In this document: in pieces, positions 1 to 17,682 of the stretch
Layout: the number at the start of each line of letters is the position of its first letter
Numbering within the stretch: the first letter of the stretch is position 1
Source: a virus
IMG/VR virus record: IMGVR_UViG_3300004369_000014
Span: 1-63,116 of that record
Direction: 5' to 3' (one strand)
Length of the DNA: 63,116 nucleotides
Program-made: the position numbers and the translations under genes
Notes under the pieces: model-generated
Told to the model about the DNA's origin: nothing
The model's database searches: none
What the model saw: only the letters and a program-made list of their open reading frames with translations

Positions 1-110
1 CTTCCCGCCGCATTTCCCGCCGTTCTTCCCGCCATTCTTCCCGCCGCATTTCCCGCCGTTCTTCCCGCCATTCTTCCCGCCGGGATTTGGTCCATACTTC
101 CCACCATTCT
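1..110 (+). repeat. Degenerate 12-bp tandem repeat
   Basis: Imperfect tandem copies of a CTTCCCGCCNTT-like 12-base unit, with interspersed CATTTCCCGCCG variants, fill about the first 90 bases and decay towards 118. The period is a multiple of three and encodes the Phe-Pro-Pro repeats of the partial gene. There are no spacers of unique sequence, so it is not a CRISPR array. Such arrays vary in copy number by slippage. Confidence 0.8.
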
Positions 111-142
111 TCCCACCGTCGTTCGCCGTACCGAAGGGGTGA
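1..142 (+). CDS. 3' end of a Phe/Pro-repeat protein (partial, probably tail-associated)
   Basis: An open frame enters from the left edge at base 2 and ends at TGA 140-142, giving 46 visible residues. They are almost only Phe and Pro with a few His and Gly, in repeats such as FPPHFPPFFPPFFPP, and end SFAVPKG. The frame has no stop through the repeat, and the DNA repeat unit is in phase with the codons, so coding is likely. No fold or family can be assigned from this tail. Phe/Pro- and Gly-rich low-complexity ends occur in phage fibre and structural proteins. The neighbouring prolyl-hydroxylase-like genes make a proline-rich protein here interesting. It could also be a cell-envelope-directed protein. 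The start and most of the gene lie outside the window. Confidence 0.5.
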   Translation, partial: FPPHFPPFFPPFFPPHFPPFFPPFFPPGFGPYFPPFFPPSFAVPKG

Positions 143-181: not shown

Positions 182-1048
182 ATGAGTGACAGGCAGCTTC
201 CCGTTTCTGTATACGACATCGGACTTTCATCTGCCGATGGGTCGGAAAATTCTATCCTCGCTAAGTACAAAGGCAAAGTCACTCTGATCTTTAACGTCGC
301 TGCCGGATGCGGAAATATACCGCAACACATCGCGCTTGAACGACTCAATCAGATCTACAAAGATGAGCCAGACTTCAACATTCTTGCCGTTACGGTCGAC
401 GATTTCTGCTGCCACGGCTATGAAGAGTTCCAAGATGGCTTAAACTCGTACATAGAGAAGAATAATGTAAATCTTCTACCAGGGCAGGTTGCACAGAGCT
501 ACGCGCAAGAGAATTTTGGTGCAACATACTCGTTTTCAGAACTGACAAACGGTAGATACGACAAGCATAGGTACGATCGCAATTTTGTCCCCGGATCAGT
601 AAAAGAGCAAGACATCCATCTTCTTTGGTACTACCTGACTGAAGCGCACAAGGCTGATCTCGCTGAAAACGGTCTTCCGTATCACGACGAGCGCATACCG
701 TGGTCTGACACCTACCGAGTTAGCCCGCCAGACGGGAAGACGGGGTTCACGCCACTGACTGGAAACTTTGAAAAGTTTCTAGTTAGCAGGTCTGGAAGAG
801 TCATACGAAGATACCCCAACGCGTTTCTGCTAGGTGAACGCGACGAAAATAATATTGTGTACCCATGGTTTAATGACACAGACTCCCCATCGGGTGTCCC
901 TGAGTACAAACCAAACCATGAAAAACGTGACGAAGGTCCTGAAAATAACGGGCCGTATCCAACGCCGTACCAAGAACGTGGAATTAGTATGTCGTTAGAA
1001 AGAATTTGTCGCGACATTGATCAATTTATTTCGCAGCAAGTGGAGTAA
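182..1048 (+). CDS. Glutathione-peroxidase-like (thioredoxin-fold) protein
   Basis: 288 residues. The N-terminal part, YKGKVTLIFNVAAGCGN (residues 29-45) followed by PQH, matches the core of glutathione peroxidases (YKGKV-LI-NVAS-C/U-G--PQ), placing the peroxidatic Cys at C43. A later GNFEKFLVSRSGRVIRRY segment (194-211) matches the family's WNF-KFLV-R-G-V--RF strand. Typical members are about 160 residues; here roughly 100 extra residues separate the two halves and the C-terminus is extended. Two catalytic residues are changed: the Gln of CNQFG aligns with D74 and the Trp of WNF with G194. A classical peroxidase mechanism is therefore doubtful and a redox or thiol role is inference. It is the first gene of the oxygenase island; ATG follows a weak GAGG. 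Thioredoxin-fold assignment is secure, substrate unknown. Confidence 0.7.
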   Translation: MSDRQLPVSVYDIGLSSADGSENSILAKYKGKVTLIFNVAAGCGNIPQHIALERLNQIYKDEPDFNILAVTVDDFCCHGYEEFQDGLNSYIEKNNVNLLPGQVAQSYAQENFGATYSFSELTNGRYDKHRYDRNFVPGSVKEQDIHLLWYYLTEAHKADLAENGLPYHDERIPWSDTYRVSPPDGKTGFTPLTGNFEKFLVSRSGRVIRRYPNAFLLGERDENNIVYPWFNDTDSPSGVPEYKPNHEKRDEGPENNGPYPTPYQERGISMSLERICRDIDQFISQQVE

Positions 1049-1091: not shown

Positions 1092-1745
1092 ATGAGAGAC
1101 ATAGAACAAGAACAAGAGCTAGAAGAGTCTTTGATAGGCTACAATCATTTTGGGCGATCAATAGATCAGATCATCTACGACAAAAATTTTGTAGACAAAG
1201 AAGACGCTCTTTACATCCAAAATTTTGTTCAAACCATTGATGAATGGGAAAACGGAATGCAGGACACGTTTAACGAAGACGGAGACTGCATCTACATGCA
1301 AAACTACTGGTGGAACAGAGTCTGCAGTGGCGAAATCATTAAGCGACTAGACGAAAAAGCTTTTGAAATTATTCAAAAGTACGTCGACAAGATGGCTGAT
1401 CTTATAGAAGAAAAACATGCTGTTGAAGTAGTCGGCAGACCGCCAGTACTTGTTAGGTGGCTTCCTGGGAATAAACAAGAGCCACACGCTGATAAGCAGC
1501 TCAACGATGGGCGACCAAACCCGTTCCCACTCTATGACATCAATTCTGTTATCTACTGGAACGAAGATTTCACTGGCGGTGAGTTCTACTACCCAGAGTA
1601 CGACATAGAGTACAAGATAACAGAAGGCATGGCAGTAGCGCATCCCGGAGACGTAAACTATCTTCACGGAGTTCGCGAGATCATTTCGGGAGTTCGTTGG
1701 ACGACTCCTTCGTTTTACACAGTCACTGGATTCAAGGAGAGATAG
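1092..1745 (+). CDS. 2OG-Fe(II) oxygenase, prolyl-4-hydroxylase-like (copy 1)
   Basis: 217 residues with a full facial triad: H132 and D134 (PHAD), H192 (LHGV) and the 2-oxoglutarate-binding R202 ten residues later in GVRWTTPSF. The strand NEDFTGGEFYYPEYD before the second His is typical of prolyl-4-hydroxylase-like double-stranded beta-helix enzymes (FxGGExxFP). The family couples decarboxylation of 2-oxoglutarate to hydroxylation of a protein side chain or small molecule; which one cannot be told. The N-terminal 110 residues are helical and charged and probably hold the substrate-binding part. It is separated by 43 bases from the peroxidase-like gene and by 3 bases from the next oxygenase, so co-transcription is likely. 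Confidence 0.85.
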   Translation: MRDIEQEQELEESLIGYNHFGRSIDQIIYDKNFVDKEDALYIQNFVQTIDEWENGMQDTFNEDGDCIYMQNYWWNRVCSGEIIKRLDEKAFEIIQKYVDKMADLIEEKHAVEVVGRPPVLVRWLPGNKQEPHADKQLNDGRPNPFPLYDINSVIYWNEDFTGGEFYYPEYDIEYKITEGMAVAHPGDVNYLHGVREIISGVRWTTPSFYTVTGFKER

Positions 1746-1748
1746 AAG

Positions 1749-2456
1749 ATGGAAGTTGCAGGATACGTAGGTCACCCTAATGCGGGGATCGTGCTATACA
1801 AGAACGTATGGCCAAGCGACTCTCAGTTCGTTGAAAGAATTGAAGAGGCTGTCAAGGATAGCGCAAACGAGCGGTACAGGTGGCTGCCGGCAACAGTCGG
1901 CGACTACGAAGTCATGAAGAACTATCGCGATTGCTGGGATCTAAAGATTGGCCAGCGTGATCTTGACTCTCTTCCAGATCAGTTTGCTGATCTCGCAAAT
2001 GTGTATCAAGAAGTAATTGGTGGAGTTCGCGAGTGCGTTCGTCACTACTCTTCTCTATACAATTTGACTTTGGAATATGAAGAGGTCACTAACTTCGTCA
2101 AGTACGAAGAAGGCCAGTTCTTTGGAGTCCACCCCGACTCCGGGTTCGCTTACTTCTGCACTGTTTCTGCGATCGGCTATATCAACGACGACTATGAAGG
2201 CGGAGAGTATATGATGCCTTTCCAGGACGTAGTGTTTAAGCCAGAAAAAGGTGACGTCATTCTTCACCCGTCTAACTTCATCTATGCGCACTCTTCGCGT
2301 CCCGTCACTAGAGGTGTCAAGTACTCTGCGGTGACGATGTACGACTACAACGACAGAAACCACATTCAGCAGAACCAAGCTGGCTACGATCCGACGACGT
2401 ATCCGAAGCCGCAGCTCCCTTCTGCTCCGACTTCGCAAGTTTCTTCTTCAACATGA
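1749..2456 (+). CDS. 2OG-Fe(II) oxygenase with Lys at the 2-oxoglutarate site (copy 2)
   Basis: 235 residues. Metal ligands H128 and D130 (HPDSG) and H181 (YAHSS), with NDDYEGGEYMMPF in between. The residue ten after the distal His is K191, not the Arg seen in the other copies. Collagen-type prolyl 4-hydroxylases also use Lys at this point, so the change is compatible with activity. HPDSG followed by an aromatic stretch and the MYDYNDR end separate it from the WW-x-x-x-GH subgroup further along. The C-terminal 30 residues are Pro/Ser/Thr-rich and probably disordered. It overlaps the next gene by ATGA (2453-2456). The substrate is unknown. Confidence 0.85.
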   Translation: MEVAGYVGHPNAGIVLYKNVWPSDSQFVERIEEAVKDSANERYRWLPATVGDYEVMKNYRDCWDLKIGQRDLDSLPDQFADLANVYQEVIGGVRECVRHYSSLYNLTLEYEEVTNFVKYEEGQFFGVHPDSGFAYFCTVSAIGYINDDYEGGEYMMPFQDVVFKPEKGDVILHPSNFIYAHSSRPVTRGVKYSAVTMYDYNDRNHIQQNQAGYDPTTYPKPQLPSAPTSQVSSST

Positions 2457-3184
2457 AAGTAACTTTAGTAAGAAACAGTCAGAATCCGCCAGAGATCCGC
2501 CCGGCATCGTTTAAAAGAGACTGGATGGACGGAACGTATAATAAGCACGCGTATAGATGTCTGCCTCTTACAGAGGCGAACACTAGCGGCTGGGAGATGA
2601 TCCTGCCGCACGACGTAGTGTTTCAGTGGGACGGAGGCACGTCTGTACCTAAAGTTCTTTCAGGCGGAACAATCACGCACGAAGTAAACGGTCATTCGTA
2701 CGAGTACAACTTAGTTCAGCAGTCCATCGTTGGAATGGCGACGTTCACTCTTGGCTGGACGTTTAAGACACCACCAGGTGTTTGGACGTGGATAACGGGC
2801 TCGCCGAACTACGTCGTAGACGGCGCAGTGCCATTGTCTGCATCAATACCTAGTGACTGGTGGCCAGACGAGGTCAATATGTCGTGGATCATTACCAAGG
2901 TTGGTGAACCAGTGACTTTTGCTGCCGGAACTCCGTTTTTATTTTTCAATTTCTACCAAAGATCGCTTCTTGAGGATACAGAGTTTTCCATCGAGAACAT
3001 GTGGGATAATCAAGAACTAGTAGAGTCTAGGATGTCGTACGGAAACGCGAAGGTTGAAAAGCTCAAGAACGAGCCGTGGACTTGGATGAATGGCATACGA
3101 ACAGGTCTAAACGAAAAAGGCGAACAAATCGGTCCTCGGTACGAGGGACATCTACAGCTTAGGAGCCCGTATGAAGCCTCTTAA
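2453..3184 (+). CDS. DUF6065-like protein
   Basis: 243 residues. The order of motifs, RPASFKRDWMDGT, AYRCLPLTEANTSGWE, a WDGG turn, FKTPPGVWTWITGSPN, SDWWPDEVNMSW and a late WDNQELVESR, is that of the DUF6065 family as I remember it, whose biochemical role is not established. It is Trp-rich and beta-rich, without signal peptide or membrane segment. Genes of this family are often neighbours of 2-oxoglutarate oxygenases and sugar or peptide biosynthesis genes. Here it is sandwiched between oxygenases, overlapping one by 4 bases and the TauD-like one by 14, which argues for translational coupling and a joint pathway. No enzymatic function should be read from it. Confidence 0.65.
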   Translation: MKVTLVRNSQNPPEIRPASFKRDWMDGTYNKHAYRCLPLTEANTSGWEMILPHDVVFQWDGGTSVPKVLSGGTITHEVNGHSYEYNLVQQSIVGMATFTLGWTFKTPPGVWTWITGSPNYVVDGAVPLSASIPSDWWPDEVNMSWIITKVGEPVTFAAGTPFLFFNFYQRSLLEDTEFSIENMWDNQELVESRMSYGNAKVEKLKNEPWTWMNGIRTGLNEKGEQIGPRYEGHLQLRSPYEAS

Positions 3185-4724
3185 AGGCGGAATTGCTGCA
3201 GGCCTCATGCTAGGCTCACTTGGCTTTAAGATAAAAGGCGTTTCAGCTCGCGATGTAATTAACGACTCAGAGTACTTTGCAGAAATACTCGCAAGAAACA
3301 AAATGATCGGATTTATCGGAATGAATCCGACTGATGAAGAGCACGAAGAGCTTCTTAGGGTTCTTTACAGAGGAGAAAAGAAAGAAATCACTCCTGGACT
3401 TTTGTTTGATCAGTGTCACAGATGGAACACACAAACTGAGTCAAGCGAAGAAGTAGATTTTGTCATGCAGAACTGGCATGTCGACAATCCTTTCTTAACG
3501 GACCCGCCGTCTTTTACTTCAATGCACATGCACACGTTTAAGATTCCAAGAGATCGCGGTAGAACGTATTTTGTATCTCTGGCATCTATGTATGAACTCT
3601 GCCCAGATAAGTACAAGCCTCTTCTTGAGCAAGTGAAGTTTGTTCATGGCACAGGAAGTGTAGATTCGGTCGGACGTTCAGCAGATTTTGTTGCTCATCC
3701 TGCGCTGAGAACTCACCCGATCACGGGCGAGACAATGATCTACTGGACAGGTGGAGACACTTATCTAGAGATCGACGAGCCATGGTTTATGAGTTTCAAA
3801 GACTGGGTAAATAGATTCCTGTCTGACGGGTCAAATTGGTACATCTGGGAATGGACAGAAGGCGATTTCATCGTGTGGGACAACAGAGCTGTTCTGCACT
3901 CTGTCGGTCCTGGGTGGTCGCACGATCAAAGAGTTTTTACGCGTGGAGAGATAGGAAAAGAGACTCCTTTCTACGACACCCAAACTACTTCTTTGTTGAA
4001 CCCAGCTTTCGGCGACATTGTTCGCCACAAAGATACGGCAAAGGATACGTCTTACGGTCCCAACCCAGATCACATTCCTCTCGTGTTTACGAAAGGCATT
4101 TACGGACTACCAGAGTGCGCGCAGTACTATCAGCAAACAACGATGTTTGTGTACTCATCAGACGAGTCGATACCAGAAGACGTCTTGAGACTGCAACAAA
4201 CAGTCGACAATGATGAATTCAACGTTGTTGCAGTAAAGCCTGAACCAGGTAATTTCTTAGAGCGCTACAGTAGAAGACTTTTGCCAGACTCTCAAATTGA
4301 AGGTCAGAAGTTTCTTTTTACCCCAAACGGAAATCTAGAAAAGGCGTATCGTCACGACGACGATCTTTTTACTGATGAGTTCGACGAGCAAGGAAGATGG
4401 CCGCCAATACGTTTGATCAACGCGCTTGGTGAATTTCACCCAGACCTTCGACATGCTGGTCACGCTTGGCACTACCCAGACTGGTTTCCGCATCAGCCGC
4501 TACGAAATCGCCCGTGGGACTGGCACAATTTGTCTTTTACTGACTACGAAGGCTTCCCTGGGTCTGAGCCACCATTTGACTATCTAGTTCAGTTTGCAGT
4601 AGACACAGTTTACGGTTGCTTTAATCACTATAGAACAGATGACGAGCGCAGAAAGATGATAGAAGCTATCATAGACTATCTGCAATTTATGCTCGATCTG
4701 GGAGAACACGAAGCCGGTAGATAG
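3171..4724 (+). CDS. TauD/TfdA-like 2OG-Fe(II) dioxygenase with a long C-terminal extension
   Basis: 517 residues. Residues about 30-265 form a TauD-type domain: NWHVDNPF gives H103 and D105, HPITGETMIYW is the conserved middle strand, and WDNRAVLHS gives H243. R254 and R258 lie at +11 and +15 from the distal His, the same spacing as R266 and R270 in E. coli TauD (which bind 2-oxoglutarate and the substrate acid group). So it is a probably active alpha-ketoglutarate dioxygenase of the small-molecule type, different from its P4H-like neighbours. Residues 266-517 are unassigned, rich in Asp, His and aromatics, and end in a helical segment. The ATG overlaps the upstream gene by 14 bases. Substrate unknown; TauD enzymes often act on amino acids or sulfonates. 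Confidence 0.85.
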   Translation: MKPLKGGIAAGLMLGSLGFKIKGVSARDVINDSEYFAEILARNKMIGFIGMNPTDEEHEELLRVLYRGEKKEITPGLLFDQCHRWNTQTESSEEVDFVMQNWHVDNPFLTDPPSFTSMHMHTFKIPRDRGRTYFVSLASMYELCPDKYKPLLEQVKFVHGTGSVDSVGRSADFVAHPALRTHPITGETMIYWTGGDTYLEIDEPWFMSFKDWVNRFLSDGSNWYIWEWTEGDFIVWDNRAVLHSVGPGWSHDQRVFTRGEIGKETPFYDTQTTSLLNPAFGDIVRHKDTAKDTSYGPNPDHIPLVFTKGIYGLPECAQYYQQTTMFVYSSDESIPEDVLRLQQTVDNDEFNVVAVKPEPGNFLERYSRRLLPDSQIEGQKFLFTPNGNLEKAYRHDDDLFTDEFDEQGRWPPIRLINALGEFHPDLRHAGHAWHYPDWFPHQPLRNRPWDWHNLSFTDYEGFPGSEPPFDYLVQFAVDTVYGCFNHYRTDDERRKMIEAIIDYLQFMLDLGEHEAGR

Positions 4725-5582
4725 ATGACAAGCAATCACCTTTTAGATTTAGAAATACCAAAAGGAAAGCATCTTGGCGGAGGTGTTGTTCTTTTCGAGA
4801 ATGTCTTTTCACTCGACTGGGACTGGATGCGCGATTTCTGTAAATCAACGCTCGAAGACGAGAGGTCCCGACAGTATACGAATGGCGTAGACCCGATCTC
4901 TGGCGAAGACGGGTACATCAACAGAAGTGGCTACTTCTTCAATAAAAGATCAGTCGAAGAAATGCCATGGCGTGGAAGCATGGTGCATCAAAACTCAGAA
5001 AAGTCCGTGGTGGAAACGCTAAGCTACATCGAGTCAGTTAGAGACAAGTGTCTACTGAAGTATCTCGAGCATTTTCCTTTAGCTGGCAAATGCATTTGGT
5101 GGAAGATCAAAAGTCATATTGTGGCGTACCCGACGGGGTCGTACCTTGGTATGCATTCTGATGTTTCTACAGACTACGAGTACGGAAAACCTCACCCGGT
5201 AGACCAGCTTGCGACACGAAACACCGTGTCTGTCGTTGCGTATTTAAATGACTGCGTAGACGCTGAAGAAGAGCTAGACGGGACAAACTTTACTGGCGGT
5301 CTACATCATTTTTGCTACTTAGACATCACACATAAGCCCAGGAAAGGCGACATGCTTTTCTTTCCGTCGAACTATGTCGCGGCACATGAAGTGCAGCCAG
5401 TGACTAGCGGTTGGCGCTACTCTTACCTTGGATGGTACTGTCAAGGCACGCCGAACTCGGCCGTTCGCGAAGAAGTCTGCGACCCAGGTGTCGATAGAGA
5501 GCTCGCTGCCATATCCACTAACGTTTACATGGAGACTGGCTATTCTCTTCTTCCACCAACTGGTTCGCTTGAAGACAAGTAG
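4725..5582 (+). CDS. 2OG-Fe(II) oxygenase, WW-GH subgroup (copy 3)
   Basis: 285 residues. Ligands H144 and D146 (MHSDVS), H221 (AAHEV) and R231 (GWRYSYLGW). It belongs to a four-member subgroup in this window that shares an I/LWWK/R segment about 20 residues before the HxD, a Y-x-x-G turn and an LG-x-H-x-D signature, and a SNYV/ANYV stretch before the distal His. The HxD-to-His distance is 77 residues because of an acidic insertion around 176-188. The ATG directly follows the TauD-like stop, and the next gene begins after 9 bases with a GGAGA ribosome site. Function: Fe(II)/2-oxoglutarate hydroxylase, substrate unknown. Confidence 0.85.
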   Translation: MTSNHLLDLEIPKGKHLGGGVVLFENVFSLDWDWMRDFCKSTLEDERSRQYTNGVDPISGEDGYINRSGYFFNKRSVEEMPWRGSMVHQNSEKSVVETLSYIESVRDKCLLKYLEHFPLAGKCIWWKIKSHIVAYPTGSYLGMHSDVSTDYEYGKPHPVDQLATRNTVSVVAYLNDCVDAEEELDGTNFTGGLHHFCYLDITHKPRKGDMLFFPSNYVAAHEVQPVTSGWRYSYLGWYCQGTPNSAVREEVCDPGVDRELAAISTNVYMETGYSLLPPTGSLEDK

Positions 5583-5591
5583 AGGAGAGAT

Positions 5592-6785
5592 ATGAAGATA
5601 GGAATTCTTCATCCCGGAAAGATGGGCAAGTCTCTTGCTCTAGCCTGCAAAAGAAACGGCCACGAAGTCTACTACGCTTCAGAAAAAAGATCTGACGTCA
5701 CGTGCAGAAACGCAAAAGAAGCGGGCGCAATTGATCTTGTTTCTGTAAAAAGAATGTGCAGAGAAGTAGACGTCATCTTCTCAATATGTATGGGAGCCGG
5801 AGTGTTCCCAAACGCATCAGAAGCTGTCAACAATAAGTTTAGCGGTGTATTTGTAGACTTCAACCATATAGGCAACGAGGGACTTGAGAGTGATCTTAGA
5901 TCACTTCTCAGTCAAGGAAACGTTAAGTACGTTGAGGGCTCAATATACGGATGGCCGTATCCGCATGAAAATGACCCGCATGGCGAGAGAACAGTGTACT
6001 TAAACGGCGAGCACGCTAGCGACATAGGACATCTGCTGCATGGAGACGTATTTGATGTTCAAATTGGCGAAACTTCGTCAAAGAACAGAAAGCGTCAGAG
6101 AGAGGAAGAAAACAAATCTTCCAATATTCCATTAGCTAATTACGGAGTCGGTGTTGTTGAGTTTCCAAACGCTTTGGCAGACATCGATGACTCGTTTGTT
6201 GACGAGTGGATGGCAAGAAGACGAGCGTGCGAGCCCAACGATTACTACAAAGATGACGAAGGGTACTACATCAGCCGCGGCGGGTACAGGTTCACCGAGT
6301 CACAGATTCTTTCTGCGCCAGAAAGATTCATGAATCTTACTCCAGACGGCTCACCGCAAGAAGACGTCGACTTCTACAACTTACTAGAAGAAACGATGTT
6401 TAAGTGTATTCACGCGTATTCAATGGAATACCCAGAAGCTAAAGACACGCTGTGGTGGCGAGCAGACGGGCACCTGGCAGCGTACAAGCAAGGCTACTAT
6501 ATGGGATTTCATCACGACACAGCGGTGGGTGGAGCAAGCGGGAATGAGAACCCAGTGTTTCTTACCGTATCGGCGTCTTTGATCGTCTCAGACAGGTGTC
6601 AAGGCGGCGCTCTCCGCTTCAAACATCTTGATAAGGAATTCTTGCCAATAAAAGGAAGCGTGATCATGTACCCCGCCGGCTACATGGGTACGCATGCAGT
6701 CGACAGGGTAGAGTCTGGCGAGCGCATCTCGTATCTCGAGTTCTTCGGGCACGGGACTCGATCTGATCAAACAAGAAGAATATGA
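5592..6785 (+). CDS. Fusion of a Rossmann dehydrogenase-like domain with a 2OG-Fe(II) oxygenase (copy 4)
   Basis: 397 residues. Residues 1-155 look like the NAD(P)-binding domain of 6-phosphogluconate/3-hydroxyacid dehydrogenases: KIGILHPGKMGKSLA with a nucleotide loop, alternating beta-alpha units and VDVIFSICMGAG. The glycine pattern is HPGKMG rather than GxGxxG, and no C-terminal helical dehydrogenase domain follows. A basic linker (163-178) leads to an oxygenase of the WW-GH subgroup with H307, D309 (FHHDT), H368 (THAV) and R378 (GERISY). The two domains are in one uninterrupted frame. An NADPH-linked redox step paired with hydroxylation is a reasonable guess only. It overlaps the next gene by ATGA-like 4 bases (6782-6785). 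Confidence 0.75.
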   Translation: MKIGILHPGKMGKSLALACKRNGHEVYYASEKRSDVTCRNAKEAGAIDLVSVKRMCREVDVIFSICMGAGVFPNASEAVNNKFSGVFVDFNHIGNEGLESDLRSLLSQGNVKYVEGSIYGWPYPHENDPHGERTVYLNGEHASDIGHLLHGDVFDVQIGETSSKNRKRQREEENKSSNIPLANYGVGVVEFPNALADIDDSFVDEWMARRRACEPNDYYKDDEGYYISRGGYRFTESQILSAPERFMNLTPDGSPQEDVDFYNLLEETMFKCIHAYSMEYPEAKDTLWWRADGHLAAYKQGYYMGFHHDTAVGGASGNENPVFLTVSASLIVSDRCQGGALRFKHLDKEFLPIKGSVIMYPAGYMGTHAVDRVESGERISYLEFFGHGTRSDQTRRI

Positions 6786-7483
6786 TAGACCCTCTTCTTG
6801 TTGGCAATGAAGACAGAATTTTAGAATTACAAAATTTTGTAGATGAAAACGAGTGCAAAGATCTAATCAAGCTACTCGAGAAATGCTCTACGTGGACTCC
6901 AGATCAAAACCAAAGCTACTCGCATAAGAACTACGTTCTCGGGTTTTCTGACGAGACATCAAACACAGTAGCGCACAGGGTTAGACAAATATTTCTGAGT
7001 GCTAGTAGCTTGATCAATAAATTCTACGGAGATGACTTTCTCATCGGTAATCCAGGACTTAGACAGTGGCACCCTGGAGAAAGCCTTGGGACTCACGTAG
7101 ACGCGGCAAACGCAAATGGCAAGTACTTCTTTAACACAAGCGGGTTTCGCGGCTCCCAAGATTATGTCCCATGGCCTGCTGTAGATCTTTCTGTTCTACT
7201 GTACTTGAATTCAGATTTTTCAGGCGGGGACTTACATTTTCCGTATCTAAACAAAACAGTTAGACCATCAGAAGGACTTCTTGTTGCTTTTCCTTCTACA
7301 AGGTATTTTGTTCACGAGGTAACAGAGGTCGAGCACGGACTTAGGTACACGGCTTTTTCGTTTCTGTCACGCGTAAACCTTATTGCCTGTATGCTGCGCC
7401 CAGAACTGTCGCCAAATTGGCAAAGATTCTTTTTAAACTCAGAAATGCTAGACGAGTTAGTTATAGAGCTAGATAACAACTAG
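6782..7483 (+). CDS. 2OG-Fe(II) oxygenase (copy 5)
   Basis: 233 residues with H105 and D107 (THVDA), H178 (FVHEV) and R188 (GLRYTAFSF), and LNSDFSGGDLHFPY as the core strand. It lacks the WW-GH signature, so like copies 1 and 2 it represents a separate lineage. It is closest in layout to small P4H/Ofd-like proteins. It is the last rightward gene of the island: its stop TAG (7481-7483) is built from the same CTAG as the stop of the opposing oxygenase gene. No terminator fits between them. Substrate unknown. Confidence 0.85.
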   Translation: MIDPLLVGNEDRILELQNFVDENECKDLIKLLEKCSTWTPDQNQSYSHKNYVLGFSDETSNTVAHRVRQIFLSASSLINKFYGDDFLIGNPGLRQWHPGESLGTHVDAANANGKYFFNTSGFRGSQDYVPWPAVDLSVLLYLNSDFSGGDLHFPYLNKTVRPSEGLLVAFPSTRYFVHEVTEVEHGLRYTAFSFLSRVNLIACMLRPELSPNWQRFFLNSEMLDELVIELDNN

Positions 7484-8277
7484 TGGTCGTACGCTCGTTG
7501 GAAGACTCGTCTGGCTTCAAATTGTTTCTCGTCGACAAGTCTACTAAAGTCGTCGTAAACGCGGTCCATCCATATCTTGCCTTTTTGGTAGCCAAATTCG
7601 TTTACATCTCTCGGAACTATGTTTCTCTCTGGGTCTGGAGAACCATGACCATACCAAGAAACGTAAGAAAGTCTAGTCCCAGAAGTCACGGTCTTCACGC
7701 AATGAGTCCCGACGTAGTTCGATGGAAACATAAGAGTTTCACCAGCGCGCAGCTCTACCTCTAAGTCGTAGTACTCAAAGTACATATTTCCGCCGGAAAA
7801 ATCGTCGTTTATCACAGATGTAGAAGACACGACGTGCTGAACTGCCGCTTGGTCTTTTGGCGTAGTTCCTGGCCTGTAATTAACGTCGTTATCGCTGTGT
7901 GAACCTAACGAGCACCCCGCTTGATACACGGAGACGTGACCTATAGTTCTCCACCAGATTGATCTAAGAGCGTCTTGGTAGACTCCAAGGTACAAAAGCA
8001 ACGTCTGATAGTTGGCTTCTTCAAGTTTTTCTACAAAGTTCTTGTCAAGATTGTCATATATGCGCGTGGGAATAGAAAAGATGTGCTCAACTGGAACTAC
8101 ATGATGACTTTTGTTAATTCCGTGAAGTAAGTTACCTTCACTGTCGTAAACAAACTCGTAGTTGTCTTGAAATGATCTTTCAGTCTCGTCGTGAAGTTTT
8201 TGTATTTCTTCGTCTAAAACTTCAAAACAAGACGAGAACTTTACTATTCCAGGGGCTAGTACAGTAGTCTCAATCAT
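7480..8277 (-). CDS. 2OG-Fe(II) oxygenase, WW-GH subgroup (copy 6)
   Basis: 265 residues from ATG at 8277; an upstream GTG at 8304 in frame would add nine residues but lies inside the preceding gene. Ligands H127 and D129 (SHSDND), H192 (THCV), R202 (GTRLSYVSW). IWWRTIGHVSVYQAG and SNYVGTHCV put it in the same subgroup as copies 3, 4 and 7, and HSDNDVNYR closely resembles HNDNDTNYR of copy 7, so these two are probably a recent tandem duplication. The start overlaps the stop of copy 7 by eight bases. It is convergent with copy 5. Confidence 0.85.
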   Translation of the reverse strand: MIETTVLAPGIVKFSSCFEVLDEEIQKLHDETERSFQDNYEFVYDSEGNLLHGINKSHHVVPVEHIFSIPTRIYDNLDKNFVEKLEEANYQTLLLYLGVYQDALRSIWWRTIGHVSVYQAGCSLGSHSDNDVNYRPGTTPKDQAAVQHVVSSTSVINDDFSGGNMYFEYYDLEVELRAGETLMFPSNYVGTHCVKTVTSGTRLSYVSWYGHGSPDPERNIVPRDVNEFGYQKGKIWMDRVYDDFSRLVDEKQFEARRVFQRAYDH

Positions 8278-9241
8278 ACGGCATGTACGTTCCGGAGGCC
8301 TCACCTTCGAACGCTCTGTCCTGCGTCTTTATCGTACTAGCATGAAACCCAAGAAGTAGATCTCGTTGAAGATCGTAATCTGAGTGCCCAGAGTCTACAA
8401 ACTTTTCATGATCTTGATGAATGAAAGGAAAATACACTGGAGGAAGCCAGTCAACACTTTCTGTTGACTCGACGATCTCCCCGTCGTGCACCATGCCGTG
8501 GCCGTACTGCGCTAGATACGTGTACCTTTCGCCGCTTTCTACCTTTGTCACAGCGTGAGTTCCGACATAGTTTGCAGGAAAAAACACGATGTCGCCGACA
8601 TCTGGCTTTATAAGAACATTAGCGTACGGGAAGTAAAATTCTCCACCTTCGTAATTGTCGTTTAGATACACAAGGGCGTTGACTACTTGGTACATCGCGA
8701 CTTCTCGTTGAGTGAAGTATCTTTGCCCGTCTTTGGTTCTGTAGTTCGTGTCGTTGTCGTTGTGTATTCCAAGCGACGCGCCGGGCACGTACTTTAAAAC
8801 GTGTCCGCGGTTTTTCCACCAAAGAGTATTGATGATCATTGGAAAAAGATCTGTGTATCTAATTAGACAACGGTACAGAGACTTTTCTGTTTCTTCAAAG
8901 AAATTAGCGATGTCGTCAGTGGTGTAGTCTTCTACTGGACCAGGCATTCCGTAGCCGCCAAGTCTCATTGGGAGACCTAAGAGCATCTCGTATGGGAACT
9001 CTCGTCCTTCTCCGTCGAGACAGTACTTCTCTCCGCCTTCTCGTTCACGTATGTCAAAACCGCATGACGGGACATACGCATGCTCGTCGATATATGGGAG
9101 AATCTTGTCTTGCTGCACGTCTACAACGGAATGAAACTGAATAATTCCAGATCCGTGGTTCGTGTAGCGAGTAGAGGCGATCTTTTCAACGTCGCCGTCA
9201 GCAAGTTTGCTGATCTCATATCTTCTTTTCGCGCTAATCAT
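8270..9241 (-). CDS. 2OG-Fe(II) oxygenase, WW-GH subgroup (copy 7)
   Basis: 323 residues. Ligands H160 and D162 (IHNDND), H229 (THAV), R239 (GERYTYLAQYGHG). Core strand LNDNYEGGEFYFPY. LWWKNRGHVLKYVPGASLG marks the subgroup. The N-terminal 130 residues and the 60-residue C-terminal tail are longer than in its neighbour, copy 6. The ATG follows the stop of the methyltransferase-like gene by one base, so the two are likely translated from one leftward mRNA starting near 11881. Hydroxylase with unknown substrate. Confidence 0.85.
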   Translation of the reverse strand: MISAKRRYEISKLADGDVEKIASTRYTNHGSGIIQFHSVVDVQQDKILPYIDEHAYVPSCGFDIREREGGEKYCLDGEGREFPYEMLLGLPMRLGGYGMPGPVEDYTTDDIANFFEETEKSLYRCLIRYTDLFPMIINTLWWKNRGHVLKYVPGASLGIHNDNDTNYRTKDGQRYFTQREVAMYQVVNALVYLNDNYEGGEFYFPYANVLIKPDVGDIVFFPANYVGTHAVTKVESGERYTYLAQYGHGMVHDGEIVESTESVDWLPPVYFPFIHQDHEKFVDSGHSDYDLQRDLLLGFHASTIKTQDRAFEGEASGTYMPYD

Positions 9242-9242
9242 G

Positions 9243-10025
9243 CTATGCCGTCCTAATGCAGACCAAAGATCCCCAGTCTATCGGCACGTGATAAGAATCA
9301 TAGTCTTGTCTTGAGTTTGCGTATCTGTTTACATCACTATGTGCTCTTGTGTGCACGGCGAGGCTGTCGTCGTACATTCTTCCTTGGCCACTCGCGTCGC
9401 GAATAACTAGGAATCCACCGATCTTGACACTATCCATTAGAGTAGCTAAAAATCTAGTGTCGACGTCTAAAACCTCATTTACGTGAACAGAAATAAGGTC
9501 AAACGACTTATCAGTATCTCCAGAGTAGATGTCTTGAACGTCAACTACAGAGTAACCAAAGTCTCCGTAGGTCGTTGAACGCGCGGTCGGGAAGAAAAAT
9601 GTTTCCTGGTAAAACAAGTGGTTGTTGTTGATCAACGTGACGCTGTAGTCGCTACTTGCCAGCATTTTCTGTCTAAACAAGAATGGAGAGCCAGCAGATA
9701 CTAAAACGTCTATCTTCTGCCCGTCTACCGCTTTAGTCGAAAGAGACTTACTAAGCAGCGACTCAAACATCGTCTGAAACGCCATACTCGACCAGACGTG
9801 CGCTAGAACGTCGTATTCAGCTTGGCTGACTATTTCAAAGTCAAGTGCATCTACGTCTCCGCCAATAGCCATCACTCTTTTGTCGATATTAGCGTTCTCA
9901 TTGTGCTGTACGATGTTTAACGCGTAGTCCACCATCATGGTCTGATCAGCGTCGGAAAAGTCGTCTATCCCACAGTTTGTGAAGTGTCTAGCGACTCTCA
10001 TTCTTTCGACTATAGAGTTATTCAT
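9243..10025 (-). CDS. Unassigned protein, weakly methyltransferase-like
   Basis: 260 residues. The second half has a run that looks like strands 4 and 5 of a class I SAM-dependent methyltransferase: FDLISVHVNEVLD, a helix, then KIGGFLVIRDAS. Strand 1 may be KIDVLVSAGSPF but the normal GxGxG loop is not there, so SAM binding is uncertain. I do not recognise a named family. Position directly upstream of two oxygenase genes, with one base between, suggests it acts in the same pathway. It overlaps the upstream small gene by ATGA (10022-10025). Confidence 0.55.
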   Translation of the reverse strand: MNNSIVERMRVARHFTNCGIDDFSDADQTMMVDYALNIVQHNENANIDKRVMAIGGDVDALDFEIVSQAEYDVLAHVWSSMAFQTMFESLLSKSLSTKAVDGQKIDVLVSAGSPFLFRQKMLASSDYSVTLINNNHLFYQETFFFPTARSTTYGDFGYSVVDVQDIYSGDTDKSFDLISVHVNEVLDVDTRFLATLMDSVKIGGFLVIRDASGQGRMYDDSLAVHTRAHSDVNRYANSRQDYDSYHVPIDWGSLVCIRTA

Positions 10026-10399
10026 AGCGACCCCTGATACTCCGCAAGACGACGTTTTCTATACGACCGGCGAGCAGTTAAGGCAAGTATTCCATTTTTC
10101 TTGAATATGAAATCGTTAGAGCCAGTCTTCGGTTTTTCTTTCCACTCATAGGTAGTGTCTTCGGGGTAGTCTCCTGCCATGTCTTCTGTCACGCGTGTCA
10201 CCATTGTCGTCGAGGTTCTTCCGTGAAAAAAGACAGAATCAATTGCAGAGATGATGTCATCTATTACATACTGCGTTGGGTTTGACCCGTCTAGTCCGCA
10301 GATAAAGCAGATCTTCGAAAGTTGACGTTCTTGCCATGACAAATCGGCAGACGCGTCGTAGCTAGAGTAGTTTGGAGTAGAAGATTGACGAATAGTCAT
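10022..10399 (-). CDS. Hypothetical protein (125 aa)
   Basis: Not recognised. It has a predicted helical first half with a single CFIC pair (residues about 31-34), a HGRTSTT stretch, and a very basic C-terminus (RRSYRKRRLAEYQG) which could bind nucleic acid or an acidic partner. The gene is in a tight leftward run with 2- to 4-base spacings or overlaps. Codon use and compact packing support it being real. Confidence 0.6.
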   Translation of the reverse strand: MTIRQSSTPNYSSYDASADLSWQERQLSKICFICGLDGSNPTQYVIDDIISAIDSVFFHGRTSTTMVTRVTEDMAGDYPEDTTYEWKEKPKTGSNDFIFKKNGILALTARRSYRKRRLAEYQGSL

Positions 10400-10401
10400 C
10401 G

Positions 10402-10653
10402 CTATCTCCTGTACTCTTCGGAGACGTCTTCGTCAGGGTCAAACAGAGTACCGCAATAGATAAGTGTGTTGTCTAGCACGAACACTCTTGACCTTACTTC
10501 TTTGTCGTAGACAATAATGTCTTTATTTCTGTCGATGTCTGACACCGGATCGTACCCGAGCATTTGGCTAGCTATGCGTCTATTCTGCGCATTTGCCGTA
10601 TCAGTTCTTCTTTCTTTAGGTCTTTCATTGAATCTGCTGTTCACGAATTTCAC
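10402..10653 (-). CDS. Hypothetical protein (83 aa)
   Basis: Not recognised. GTG start at 10653 overlapping the upstream stop as GTGA. The N-terminus is basic (NERPKERRTD), followed by an Asp-rich centre (DIDRNKDIIVYDKE) and an acidic end (DPDEDVSEEYRR). RIASQMLGYDP resembles a short helix-turn but no DNA-binding family can be named. Part of the small-protein operon read leftward from about 11881. Confidence 0.55.
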   Translation of the reverse strand: MKFVNSRFNERPKERRTDTANAQNRRIASQMLGYDPVSDIDRNKDIIVYDKEVRSRVFVLDNTLIYCGTLFDPDEDVSEEYRR

Positions 10654-10865
10654 GACGACGTTAGCCCCTCTAGGACCGCGGCCTGCTCTTTTAGCGCTAC
10701 GTACGAAGGGTACGAAGGGTGGTTTTCGTCAACTGGTATCACCATCGACCCCGACACTTCTTCTGCGACCATGCCAACAAGCAACGTGACTGTGTAGATC
10801 GAGTACTCGAGAAACTCTATGGCTTCTCTCTTAGCCTCTGCTATTTGTTCTGCTGTTAGAGCCAT
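10650..10865 (-). CDS. Hypothetical small protein (71 aa)
   Basis: Not recognised. ATG at 10865 is chosen over an in-frame GTG at 10877 because GGAGGAAATA lies just before the ATG and would be inside the coding region otherwise. The protein begins with a helical ALTAEQIAEAKREAIEFLEYSIY and continues with a hydrophobic YTVTLLVGMVAEEV that is too short and polar to be a sure membrane segment. Small leftward gene in the 9243-11852 run. Confidence 0.55.
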   Translation of the reverse strand: MALTAEQIAEAKREAIEFLEYSIYTVTLLVGMVAEEVSGSMVIPVDENHPSYPSYVALKEQAAVLEGLTSS

Positions 10866-10881
10866 TATTTCCTCCACGCTG

Positions 10882-11076
10882 TCATTTCTCGTCTAGTGTC
10901 TGTAATTCATTGTAGCATGAAGCCGCATGAAGAACTAGACTATTTCTCGTGCGAGATCGTGAAAACTTAGAAAGGTCTTCTTCTTTTAGCCCAAGAAGAT
11001 GACAAACTGAGCTCACTTGATTTTGCAACCAAACTTTATGATGTTCATTGTTGTAGTGCATCTTTTCTTCTTTCAT
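10882..11076 (-). CDS. Hypothetical small protein, possible distant member of the paralogous set
   Basis: About 64 residues from ATG 11076; a TTG at 11088 and an ATG at 11061 are alternatives and no strong ribosome site decides. CHLLGLKEEDLSKF sits where the three upstream neighbours have their LG-x-D/N-P-x-x-I signature, so it may be a decayed relative, but Pro and Trp are missing. Helical, charged, no known family. Confidence 0.5.
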   Translation of the reverse strand: MKEEKMHYNNEHHKVWLQNQVSSVCHLLGLKEEDLSKFSRSRTRNSLVLHAASCYNELQTLDEK

Positions 11077-11080
11077 CTTT

Positions 11081-11320
11081 CTATTCAAGAGACTGCTGAC
11101 GAAGTTTCAGTGCTCGCAATCTTCCAAGCTGATATTCCAGTTCTCTAGCTCTGTCCAAGTATTTTTCAAGAATCTCGCTGTCACCGACAGTCCACGTAAT
11201 CGGGATATTCTCGGGATCTAGCCCAATGCGCAGACAGAGATCAAACACCTCGAGCTCTACTGTAGCGATTGTCTTCGCTAAGTGAGTTATCTGTTTTCCT
11301 TTTGGGATGTTGAGTTCCAT
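11081..11320 (-). CDS. Small paralogous protein A (LG-x-DP-x-x-I-x-x-x-W family)
   Basis: 79 residues. A helical protein with LRIGLDPENIPITW (residues about 30-43), the signature shared with the next two upstream genes. The second half is a long charged helix (EKYLDRARELEYQLGRLRALK), likely a coiled coil. The ATG follows GAGGACACT. No database family comes to mind; the three copies must derive from tandem duplication. A small helical hairpin binding a phage or host protein is one possibility. Confidence 0.65.
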   Translation of the reverse strand: MELNIPKGKQITHLAKTIATVELEVFDLCLRIGLDPENIPITWTVGDSEILEKYLDRARELEYQLGRLRALKLRQQSLE

Positions 11321-11341
11321 AGTGTCCTCTACAGTAGACTA

Positions 11342-11581
11342 TTAGCCTAGCAATGCGGCACGAGATGTTTGCAGCTCAGCAATTCTGTCTCTAATTTCTA
11401 CTATTTTATTAACCAGTCTTTGCTGCTCTTCTGGGTACTCTGCAGTAGGCCATGACTCGGAGATATCAGAAGGATCTACACCTAGCAAAAGAGAGTGACG
11501 AAAGAGATCTACGTCTAAAGACTGTAGAACTTCATCAATGATTTCTATCTTTTCCGACGCGTCGATAGATATTTCAATCAT
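11342..11581 (-). CDS. Small paralogous protein B
   Basis: 79 residues. LLLGVDPSDISESW (about 31-44) is the shared signature; the flanks are helical, with EEQQRLVNKIVEIRDRIAELQTSR as a probable coiled coil. Same length as protein A and same order of elements. The ATG follows GGAGAG at a usual distance. Function unknown. Confidence 0.65.
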   Translation of the reverse strand: MIEISIDASEKIEIIDEVLQSLDVDLFRHSLLLGVDPSDISESWPTAEYPEEQQRLVNKIVEIRDRIAELQTSRAALLG

Positions 11582-11582
11582 C

Positions 11583-11852
11583 TTACTGACTCTCCAACTT
11601 AGAACGAGTTTCTACCAATCTTTTGTTCGCGGCGAGGGCTTCTACAAGTTGTTCTGCTACGTCAACTGCCTCCACGTCTTCTCCCGGGGCCCAAGTATAG
11701 TCGATGGAGCTCGGGTTAATCCCTAGATAGAGACAGTACTTGTAAATGTCTTTTTGGTTATCAAGCAGCAAGTCATTAACTATCTCGAGCTTTTTCTGCA
11801 CGACCATAGCCGGGATCGCCCCTACTTTTGCCTCTATCGAGTCATCAGTCAT
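11583..11852 (-). CDS. Small paralogous protein C, first gene of the leftward run
   Basis: 89 residues. YLGINPSSIDYTW (about 42-54) is the shared signature; an extra ten residues are present at the N-terminus compared with A and B. The last third is helical (VAEQLVEALAANKRLVETRSKLE). GGAGAC precedes the ATG. It is the promoter-proximal gene of the 11852-to-7480 leftward unit, behind an extended -10 element at 11888-11893. Confidence 0.65.
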   Translation of the reverse strand: MTDDSIEAKVGAIPAMVVQKKLEIVNDLLLDNQKDIYKYCLYLGINPSSIDYTWAPGEDVEAVDVAEQLVEALAANKRLVETRSKLESQ

Positions 11853-13158: not shown

Positions 13159-13989
13159 TTGATTCTTGGACAAGAACAACAGAAAGAATATCTTTCTAAG
13201 CAATACCCGATGATTGCGACACCGTGTTATGGCGGTCTAGTCCACGAGCCGTATCTTCGTGGAATGACCAGCTTAGCCGGGGCAGCAGCAGGTATTGGTC
13301 TTGCTGTGAACATGGCAACGATAGTGAATGAAAGTCTGGTCACTAGAGCTCGTAATGAACTCGTTAAGTACCTTACGATGACTAACTGCACTCATCTTTT
13401 CTTTATCGACGCAGACATATCATTTACACCAGATGACGTAATTAGAACTATTCTTCACGACAAGGACGTAGTTGTAGGCGCGTATCCGCTTAAGAAAGTG
13501 AGATGGGACCAAATAGATACGTCCAAAGCAAGGTCTGCAGAGGATGTGCAGCGAATGGCCACGGACTATGTCATCAACATTAAATTTGCCGATGACAAGC
13601 AAAAAGAGACTGGACAAGTTCCAGTTGTTGATGGTCTGATTGAGGTACACGACGCTGGCACTGGTTTCATGTGTGTTAAGCGTCATGTCATCGAGAAAAT
13701 GATTGAAGCGTACCCGGAGTCTCACTACATGAAGGAACCAAAGCACGTTATACACGAGGGAGATGACTGTAAACGCTGGGCGCTGTTCGATACAATGATC
13801 GACGAGGATAATCGCTACTTGTCGGAAGACTACACCTTCTGCAGACGCTGGCAGATGCTCGGTGGAAAAATTTGGCTAGACCCCACGACTAGACTCTCTC
13901 ACATCGGCACTCACATGTTCGAGGGCCACTCTATGTTTGACATACATCAAACTGATGTCTCAAGCCCGCAAGGACTGATTGGTGGCTGA
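13159..13989 (+). CDS. GT-A-type glycosyltransferase-like protein
   Basis: 276 residues. MIATPCYGG, then ESLVTRARNELVKYL, then THLFFIDADISF (the DxD metal motif) and DVVVGAYPLKK define a GT2/GT-A nucleotide-sugar transferase fold; GTGFMCVKRHVIEKM and SEDYTFCRRWQMLGGKIWLDP give the acceptor loop and the ED catalytic region. Such proteins in phages modify virion proteins, host surface sugars or DNA bases. The start is TTG at 13159, with CGGAG seven bases before; the next ATG (13210) has no ribosome site. It overlaps the next glycosyltransferase and follows two fibre genes, so glycosylation of tail proteins is possible. Confidence 0.75.
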   Translation: MILGQEQQKEYLSKQYPMIATPCYGGLVHEPYLRGMTSLAGAAAGIGLAVNMATIVNESLVTRARNELVKYLTMTNCTHLFFIDADISFTPDDVIRTILHDKDVVVGAYPLKKVRWDQIDTSKARSAEDVQRMATDYVINIKFADDKQKETGQVPVVDGLIEVHDAGTGFMCVKRHVIEKMIEAYPESHYMKEPKHVIHEGDDCKRWALFDTMIDEDNRYLSEDYTFCRRWQMLGGKIWLDPTTRLSHIGTHMFEGHSMFDIHQTDVSSPQGLIGG

Positions 13990-14887
13990 GCCTCTAGGCG
14001 GCACCGAGCTGCAACGAAATTGGCTTCTTAGCAATCTTCCTAAGCACATTACAGACAGTGTGCAGCTAATCTGTAGACCAGACGACCTAGATATGAGCAA
14101 GAAGAGGGTTCTGTGGGTGCAGGACATGCCTCTAGATGTTCCGTTTCTTACAGACGAAAAATCAAGATCGTTGTTTTCAAAGATCGTCTTTGTCTCCGCG
14201 TGGCAGCAAATGGTGTTTAATCTCAATGCGGGGGTGCCGTTCTCAGACGGAGTTGTCATAAAGAATGCTGTAGATCCAATACCTAGAACGCAAAAGAGCG
14301 ACGACGTCATACGTCTTGTGTATCATCCAACTCCTCACCGCGGTCTTAAGATTCTTGTACCGGTGTTCGAAAGACTATCTGAGAAGTACGACAACATCCA
14401 TCTCGACGTGTTCTCGAACTTTGACATCTACGCTCGTAGTCACCTAAACGCGCAGTTCGAGACTCTGTATGAACGTTGCCGTCAGCACGACAAGATTACG
14501 TACCATGGTTCACAGCCAAACAGCGTAGTCAGAGACGCGCTTGCTGAGTCGCATATCTTTGCATACCCGAGTATTTGGCGCGAAACGTCGTGCATGTCAG
14601 CCATGGAAGCTATGACTGCTCGATGTATAACCGTTGCTCCAAACTACGGCGCCTTGCCGGAGACTCTAGCAAACTTCAACGTCTCGTATGACTGGACAGA
14701 AGATCAGGGTGCTCATGAGCGTCTCTTCGAAAAGAAACTCGAGCAGGCAATAGAAATGATCGGAAAAGACGAAACCGAAGATTTACTTGACGCTCAGAAA
14801 TCGTATGCTGATCGTTTTTATAGCAAAGAAATTCGTCTTCACCAGTGGGTTGAATTTCTTAGTTTTTTGATACAAGACAACTACTAA
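13982..14887 (+). CDS. GT-B glycosyltransferase (GT4-like)
   Basis: About 301 residues. KIVFVSAWQQMVF in the first half and HRGLKILVPVFERL, KITYHGSQPNSVVRDALAESHIFAYPS and RETSCMSAMEAM in the second are the usual GT4 C-terminal landmarks, including the E-x7-E nucleotide-sugar motif. The N-terminal domain is short for GT4. GTG at 13982 is preferred (AAGGA seven bases before); TTG at 13979 is possible. The 5' end overlaps the upstream GT-A gene. Donor and acceptor are unknown. It ends 40 bases before the convergent WhiB gene; no clear terminator lies between. Confidence 0.75.
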   Translation: MAEPLGGTELQRNWLLSNLPKHITDSVQLICRPDDLDMSKKRVLWVQDMPLDVPFLTDEKSRSLFSKIVFVSAWQQMVFNLNAGVPFSDGVVIKNAVDPIPRTQKSDDVIRLVYHPTPHRGLKILVPVFERLSEKYDNIHLDVFSNFDIYARSHLNAQFETLYERCRQHDKITYHGSQPNSVVRDALAESHIFAYPSIWRETSCMSAMEAMTARCITVAPNYGALPETLANFNVSYDWTEDQGAHERLFEKKLEQAIEMIGKDETEDLLDAQKSYADRFYSKEIRLHQWVEFLSFLIQDNY

Positions 14888-16440: not shown

Positions 16441-17682
16441 TCATTTCTGATAGAAGTTCTTCTTGACGAAGTTCCGGCTAAAGCCCTTGTCAGTGTCGAG
16501 AAGGTACTCGCGGTCACCGATCAGTTCACCGCTCGGTCCGCTTGGTTGGCCACTGAGTGCCGCTCTCGCGGACTCTCCGATCCAGTTAGCGGCTTGTACC
16601 GCCACTGCTTTGCCCCACGTCGACCCTAGGGCAGAATAGCCCTTGACACTAGCGAACTCCCAGTCGTCTGGTAGACCTTGAATTCTTGCTGCCTCACGAT
16701 GGGTAATTCGTCTTGGCTGCGTCGGATGCACAACGTGTTCGAGAGCGCTACCTGTGAGAACGTGGCAATGAGAATTTGCGTCCCAGCGGGCTGGAAGAGA
16801 AAATCCCATGTAGAAGTCGTTCTCACGGATCTTCTCTTCTTTGTTGCTCCACGACTGAGGGAACTTGTCTCCGTTTTTTTCTACGGCAAGTTTTAGTGCC
16901 TCGTTGAGAGGCATCATCTGTTCCCAGCCTTCGTTACCGATGATGTCAAAGATTTCTTTGATTCTCTGCGACTCAAGATTATCTTTGTTCACGTGGCCAT
17001 CAACCAGTCCGCTTTGATTTCTTAGATGAGAAACGAACTTCGTCCCTTCGGAGCAGTACGGCTGCTTGTCCCACGTAATCTCAAGACGCTCGAGGTCACC
17101 GATCACATCCATCATCGTAGGCAGCTCTGCTGGGGTCTCGACGTGCGCGCCGAATGGCATACCTTGCTCTACAGCTACCCAGAAGTATCTCATTCGATAT
17201 GAGAATCCACCGACCTGGAGATTGTTGTGCTTGACGTGATACAGGTCGTACTTCTTTCCAGATAGCTCTTCTACCATGTCTCGGTACTGAACCATCACGT
17301 TGCGCCCCTGCGTGTACGCCTGCTGCACGCATTCGAAGATAATCATCTTCGGTTGAATCTTAGCAGCGTACTTCATAAACGCTCGTGTGTGCTCGTGCGC
17401 CTTAGCGTCTGGCCCTCTGTTAGCAGGGCCTGACCACAGCGACCAGCCAGAACACGGCGGGCAGCCAAGAACTACGTCAGCTTCTTGAGTAGGCCAGTCT
17501 TCGGGGTCGTCGGAGAAATAAGACGCCCAGTTGTCACCGAGGTGCTTTCTGTTTGCTTGAGCCACCGGATTACCGAAGTCCAGCGTGCCTGTCCGTAGTG
17601 ACATGTCAAACCCGGAGTTTACAAATCCAAGACTCATAAATCCAGCCAAGCCGTTGCAGTCGATAAAGTTTAGATCACTCAT
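16441..17682 (-). CDS. C5-cytosine DNA methyltransferase
   Basis: 413 residues. GCPPCSGWS carries the catalytic C77 (motif IV), FECVQ (E117) is motif VI in place of the usual ENV, YRMRYFWVAV is motif VIII, RRITHREAARIQGLPDDW is motif IX, and GKAVAVQAANWIG is motif X. SAM-binding motif I is the N-terminal CNGLAGFMSLGF. About 150 residues between VIII and IX hold the target recognition domain. It methylates a specific cytosine sequence, protecting phage DNA from restriction or marking it. With an hmC pathway in the same genome its target might be remaining cytosine. The start overlaps the upstream stop (TAATG). Confidence 0.9.
   Translation of the reverse strand: MSDLNFIDCNGLAGFMSLGFVNSGFDMSLRTGTLDFGNPVAQANRKHLGDNWASYFSDDPEDWPTQEADVVLGCPPCSGWSLWSGPANRGPDAKAHEHTRAFMKYAAKIQPKMIIFECVQQAYTQGRNVMVQYRDMVEELSGKKYDLYHVKHNNLQVGGFSYRMRYFWVAVEQGMPFGAHVETPAELPTMMDVIGDLERLEITWDKQPYCSEGTKFVSHLRNQSGLVDGHVNKDNLESQRIKEIFDIIGNEGWEQMMPLNEALKLAVEKNGDKFPQSWSNKEEKIRENDFYMGFSLPARWDANSHCHVLTGSALEHVVHPTQPRRITHREAARIQGLPDDWEFASVKGYSALGSTWGKAVAVQAANWIGESARAALSGQPSGPSGELIGDREYLLDTDKGFSRNFVKKNFYQK

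Follow-up and report, generated by a model that had tools for sequence, protein, structure and literature searches.

What do eight Fe(II)/2-oxoglutarate (2OG) oxygenases do when they are encoded side by side in a single phage? The question is raised by a 63,116-base linear virus record of IMG/VR (IMGVR_UViG_3300004369_000014), the whole of which is referred to here as the window. Its PHROG matches (WhiB, DNA methyltransferase, helicase, DNA polymerase, tape measure, major tail, head and portal) identify a tailed phage, and the WhiB match suggests an actinobacterial host. Named phages gave no near match to bases 1–24000 of the window. Far from the oxygenases, a 1474-aa open reading frame (ORF) at 52376–56800 has portal-like and prohead-protease-like matches in a single frame and may represent a fusion or contain an intein.

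A sequence-only reading of the window had listed eight oxygenase genes, and all eight ORFs are present (Table 1; genes are named by their lower coordinate). Beside the cassette, the minus strand of 10650–11852 carries small similar-looking ORFs (motif ...LGxDPxxI...W...) that resemble tandem duplicates.

Table 1. Genes of the cassette region, with positions in the window and the basis of each assignment.
Position	Strand	Gene or product	Basis or remark
2..142	+	FPPX repeat gene, 3' end (5' part off contig)	FPPHFPPFFPPFFPPHFPPFFPPFFPPGFGPYFPPFFPPSFAVPKG-stop; proposed substrate
182..1048	+	Glutathione-peroxidase-like (GPx-like) protein	PF00255 32.5 bits, cut-off 27; peroxidatic Cys motif NVAAGCG intact
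1092..1745	+	2OG oxygenase, prolyl-3/4-hydroxylase-like (core)	Family profile
1749..2456	+	2OG oxygenase, prolyl-4-hydroxylase-like (core)	PF13640 above cut-off, profile
2453..3184	+	DUF6065 protein, inside the oxygenase island	PF19541 144 bits; kept in all complete cassettes
3171..4724	+	TauD-type oxygenase (core)	PF02668, E 6e-25
4725..5582	+	2OG oxygenase, WW group (core)	PF13640 above cut-off, profile, AlphaFold model
5592..6785	+	Rossmann NAD(P)-type domain fused to 2OG oxygenase, WW group (core)	PF13640 above cut-off
6782..7483	+	2OG oxygenase (accessory)	PF13640 above cut-off
7480..8304	-	2OG oxygenase, WW group (accessory)	PF13640 above cut-off
8270..9241	-	2OG oxygenase, WW group (core)	PF13640 above cut-off
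9243..10025	-	Conserved cassette gene, methyltransferase-type Rossmann look by eye only	No Pfam match
10022..10399	-	Small conserved cassette gene	

Ligands and closest relatives of the oxygenases

Seven of the eight oxygenases reach the cut-off of a curated family (PF13640 or PF02668). The exception is 1092, the weakest of the seven prolyl-hydroxylase-type genes and the only one below the PF13640 cut-off (18.1 bits vs 27); its family profile, built from 11 members, nevertheless matches human prolyl 3-hydroxylase 1 (P3H1; E 6e-6). The eighth gene, 3171, had been called TauD-like, in agreement with its PF02668 match, and the TauD-type Arg at +11/+15 can be read from its sequence. The HxD...H motif with Arg or Lys ten residues after the distal His, reported for the other seven genes, was found in all of them. 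In 26 paralogues of the other groups, H144, D146, H221 and R231 (numbered as in 4725) never vary; in a few relatives of 8270, one residue is inserted ahead of the Arg, and the Arg itself is retained. A signature common to four genes does exist, although its first part had been misread as WW-x-GH: the correct form is WW-x3-[G/S]H plus [L/M]G-x-H-x-D.

The best match of the profile of this WW group is P3H1 (E 1.8e-12). In a profile search of the PDB, the WW, 1092 and 1749 profiles matched P3H1, PKHD hydroxylases and prolyl 4-hydroxylases (P4Hs) from bacteria, animals and the chlorella virus PBCV-1. An AlphaFold model of 4725 (pLDDT 81) matched prolyl hydroxylases almost throughout its best 50 rows of fold matches, over the whole domain, in a list that is redundant because many rows are PHD2 entries. 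These matches include the PBCV-1 enzyme vCPH (Z 14.9), P3H1 (Z 14.8) and an algal P4H with a (Ser-Pro)5 peptide (Z 14.7). P3H1 acts on Pro-Pro in collagen, and the substrate repeat of vCPH is PAPK. The nearest solved relatives and, as modelled, the fold are those of prolyl 3- and 4-hydroxylases, a common fold that leaves the reaction and the substrate unfixed. Displacement of the ligands, which the sequence-only reading had named as evidence against itself, seems unlikely: they are intact in the sequences, and the predicted 4725 structure matches those of solved prolyl hydroxylases.

As in TET/JBP phage base modification, the window combines 2OG oxygenases, a DNA methyltransferase (16441–17682) and glycosyltransferases (13159–14887) in a single phage, and weak Tet_JBP matches of 6782 and 8270 would fit oxygenases that act on methylated bases as part of a DNA hypermodification pathway. 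However, these matches score 14.0 and 19.8 bits against a cut-off of 34.9, the best relatives are prolyl hydroxylases, the conserved cassette described below has no DNA-type methyltransferase, and the island is linked to a protein repeat instead. We regard DNA hypermodification as extremely improbable.

Conservation and history of the cassette

Relatives of the cassette were collected from 19 IMG/VR contigs that carry a relative of 3171 (42–65 per cent identity) and two more found through the fusion protein. The order 1092 - 1749 - DUF6065 - TauD - 4725 - Rossmann - oxygenase is kept, with short contigs holding only part of it; in most relatives the counterparts of 5592 are two adjacent genes, one for the Rossmann protein (~200 aa) and one for the oxygenase (~220 aa). 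Downstream lie 8270-like, 9243-like and, in some contigs, 10022-like genes, inverted except in contigs L133 and L134. Six of the eight oxygenases belong to this conserved ordered cassette, which is common to about 20 uncultured phage contigs, and 6782 and 7480 are accessory.

In several contigs the set is extended by another GPx-like gene, a second TauD gene, PhyH or PF13640 genes, or a flavin tryptophan halogenase. The halogenase (PF04820, E about 1e-95 to 1e-106) is found in phage contigs L035, L038, L045, L047 and L051, where it lies in an extended cassette after the GPx-like gene, TauD and a further oxygenase, and in the records of L050 and L055. The GPx-like gene of the window has an equivalent position in L034 and L050; its product has a large insertion that separates the Cys motif from a C-terminal NFEKFLV motif, and relatives recur in extended cassettes. 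The C-terminal half of the TauD protein (residues ~270–517, ~250 aa) matches no Pfam family; every single-gene relative retains it.

A search of bacterial genomes with TauD found no relative. A search with DUF6065 recovered two alphaproteobacterial chromosomal homologues in unrelated contexts, no match among the named phages of the collection and two contigs (L135 and L136) that are binned in Verrucomicrobiales and gammaproteobacterial MAGs and look like misplaced phage contigs. These two carry the repeat described below and about 11 oxygenases, with two to four shorter TauD-like genes in place of the single 517-aa TauD gene. For DUF6065 itself, a PDB profile search returned nothing useful, an AlphaFold model from an alignment of 10 rows reached a pLDDT of only 36, and a literature search for 'DUF6065' found no mention.

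In a tree of 68 sequences, the members of every gene group together, and all four WW genes fall in one clade (support 100/92). This topology bears out the proposal that the four arose by duplication followed by divergence, and implies that the duplication predates the spread of the cassette. The dN/dS values of the oxygenases in close pairs are mostly about 0.02–0.11; one value of 0.33 comes from a comparison of non-orthologous 1749-like genes. The selection that had been deduced from the intact ligands is thus supported, as purifying selection, by the substitution data as well. Given the conserved order in about 20 phage contigs, the clades and the low dN/dS, the block is not a recent, non-conserved insert, an outcome that would have spoken against the sequence-only reading. 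Its GC content is 46.6 per cent vs 51.3 per cent for the remaining window, and it is absent from most phages related through the major head protein (see below); it therefore behaves as a patchily distributed module.

A Phe-Pro-Pro-X repeat gene next to the cassette

In the relatives, the gene upstream of the cassette encodes a short N-domain followed by 6–34 Phe-Pro-Pro-X (FPPX) units, in which X is nearly always Phe, His or Tyr. The N-domain scores above the PASTA cut-off in L034, and fn3 or other domains take its place elsewhere; PASTA domains occur in Gram-positive cell-wall binding proteins. The repeat gene lies just downstream of tail-fibre genes and just upstream of the oxygenases. Every relative whose sequence extends upstream has it adjoining the cassette, apart from L133 and L134, in which the array is several kilobases upstream with other genes between. 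The first 142 bases of the window are the 3' end of this gene, identical in position and C-terminal sequence to that of L034, the closest relative. They contain all seven FPPX pattern matches of the window (none in 100 shuffles). Because the contig starts within the gene, it was invisible to the sequence-only reading. Within the arrays, codon variation falls at third positions, the pattern that selection on the amino acids predicts.

A second style of repeat, in which FPPF is mixed with FPF units (FFPFFPPFFPPF) on fn3-like or other domains, is seen in L145, L152, L162, L208 and others, and these records too are rich in oxygenases. Among named phages, none matched the N-domain of one repeat protein; in that search the low-complexity filter hides the repeat itself. 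A literature search did not find the FPPF motif in a phage context.

Used alone as a probe of viral contigs, the repeat identified at least 120 loci, and the whole records of 50 were searched for PF13640. The family is present in 45 of these 50 records, and 42 have two or more copies, usually 5–11. As controls, we used 35 records picked solely by their major head protein. The repeat occurs in one of these, which, with eight PF13640 genes, is also alone in having more than one; among the 34 without the repeat, four have a single copy and none has more. The difference in carriage of two or more copies (42/50 vs 0/34; Fisher exact test, P = 6e-16) is indicative only, as are the statistics generally, because the records are fragments and partly related. 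Conversely, 27 records picked by similarity to 8270 alone have 2–12 PF13640 genes each, and 19 of them have the repeat; the eight negatives are mostly short contigs or end near the cluster. For the 79 of 110 repeat ORFs that have an oxygenase in the fetched stretch, the nearest one is at a median distance of 305 bp, often <100. The five repeat records without PF13640 include two in which the repeat is at (G097) or near (G093) the contig end and three of reasonable length (G059, G091 and G103) that are real exceptions. A virus-coded proline-rich repeat protein alongside P4H-type oxygenases, the arrangement known from PBCV-1, is therefore present here.

The repeat might be a mere neighbour in the module, with the oxygenases modifying another virion or host protein, such as tail fibre domains, EF-Tu or ribosomal proteins. 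Tail-fibre genes also adjoin, and a bacterial P4H is known to act on EF-Tu, with such structures among the fold matches of 4725. The association nevertheless spans repeat proteins that differ in their N-domain (PASTA, fn3 or another) and oxygenase sets of varying composition, and Gly-X-Y collagen-like repeats are absent from the window and from the fibre genes of ten loci. We consider modification of another protein unlikely.

The array could also be a RiPP-like multi-core precursor that is oxidized, sometimes halogenated and then cut to release a peptide or small molecule. Such a pathway would fit the proximity of repeats to oxygenases and TauD/PhyH genes, and also the flavin tryptophan halogenase that 7 of 25 records encode. 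Against it, the repeat forms part of proteins with PASTA or fn3 domains and lies beside tail fibres, and the cassette genes scanned, several of which have no family, include no protease and no transporter or exporter. Nor does Trp in the repeat track the halogenase: L036 has Trp and no halogenase in its record, and L038 has the halogenase and no Trp. A released product appears decidedly unlikely.

A proposed protein-modification system and its viral counterparts

The gene content, the conserved order, the intact ligands, the prolyl-hydroxylase kinship and the tight linkage of the cassette to the repeat are established observations. Since a conserved oxygenase set adjoins the FPPX gene in the relatives, the enzymes probably hydroxylate this tail-associated protein, and in our judgement the island is probably explained by a system of several enzymes whose common target for hydroxylation is an aromatic-proline repeat protein of the tail region. 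We infer the repeat as substrate, the atoms that are hydroxylated, the presence of the protein in the virion and the effect of the modification. The island would be a phage protein-modification cassette whose mainly prolyl-hydroxylase-like 2OG oxygenases act jointly on the (Phe-Pro-Pro-aromatic)n region, each taking a different atom of the four-residue unit. Probable sites are C3 and C4 of Pro and perhaps the beta-carbons of Phe, His and Tyr, at several positions per unit. Left unmodified, an (FPPF)n chain would be strongly hydrophobic and would form a polyproline-type rod; once hydroxylated, this rod may become an appendage near the tail fibre that is soluble, stiff or adhesive. The different spacing of the triads had been taken as a sign of different substrates; we found no support for this, and joint action of the set on a single repetitive protein is the better reading. 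The TauD, GPx-like and Rossmann members speak against the hydroxylation system in that they have no obvious step in it; the three exceptional repeat records, and the cyanomyoviruses discussed below with their many oxygenases and no repeat, count against it as well.

A bolder version, in which 6–12 different 2OG oxygenases, in some cases joined by a flavin halogenase, together hypermodify the aromatic-proline tetrapeptide repeat at most of its positions to give a virion-borne, polymer-like material that diverse phages share as a module and that is unknown from any organism, is put forward tentatively, as rather less likely to be right than wrong.

The closest counterpart is PBCV-1 vCPH (PDB 5c5t), a viral 2OG prolyl hydroxylase whose substrates are proline-rich viral repeats (Eriksson et al. 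1999, as cited in PMC9301287). That system has one enzyme in an algal virus, whereas here six or more diverged enzymes form an ordered phage cassette with an aromatic-proline FPPX repeat. P3H1, the best sequence-profile match of the WW group and of 1092, is an animal enzyme with a collagen substrate, in contrast to a setting that lacks GXY repeats.

Multiple P4H-type oxygenases per phage are also a feature of cyanomyoviruses. The earlier view that a phage seldom has more than one or two does not hold for this group: two isolates have 7–8 PF13640 copies, and most tabulated genomes of T4-like cyanophages carry several (PMC3037559). EGLN-like folds have also been noted in marine phages (PMC12774648). 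In cyanomyoviruses, however, the oxygenases are scattered and lack the cassette order, and the four records tested have no FPPX repeat. Many cyanomyovirus oxygenases thus occur without the repeat, and the PF13640 family therefore has other roles as well. Auxiliary metabolism, in which the enzymes alter host 2-oxoglutarate, nitrogen, sulphur or iron metabolism, has been proposed for cyanophage 2OG oxygenases (PMC3037559) and would accommodate the TauD member; for the present island it seems very unlikely, because many diverged protein-hydroxylase-type paralogues lie side by side at a repeat gene, a linkage that metabolism does not need.

Among the auxiliary genes of aquatic viromes, prolyl 4-hydroxylase is abundant, and its viral use 'remains cryptic' according to a survey (PMC9301287). 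Hydroxylation of the repeat protein, if true, would help to explain the presence of prolyl hydroxylases in aquatic phages. The repeat is a concrete, adjacent and easily synthesized candidate substrate, which makes this use directly testable. If the proposal holds, it would be a source of new hydroxylases and protein materials, and phages would make a hydroxylated aromatic-proline appendage through a multi-enzyme pathway, with a bearing on host binding.
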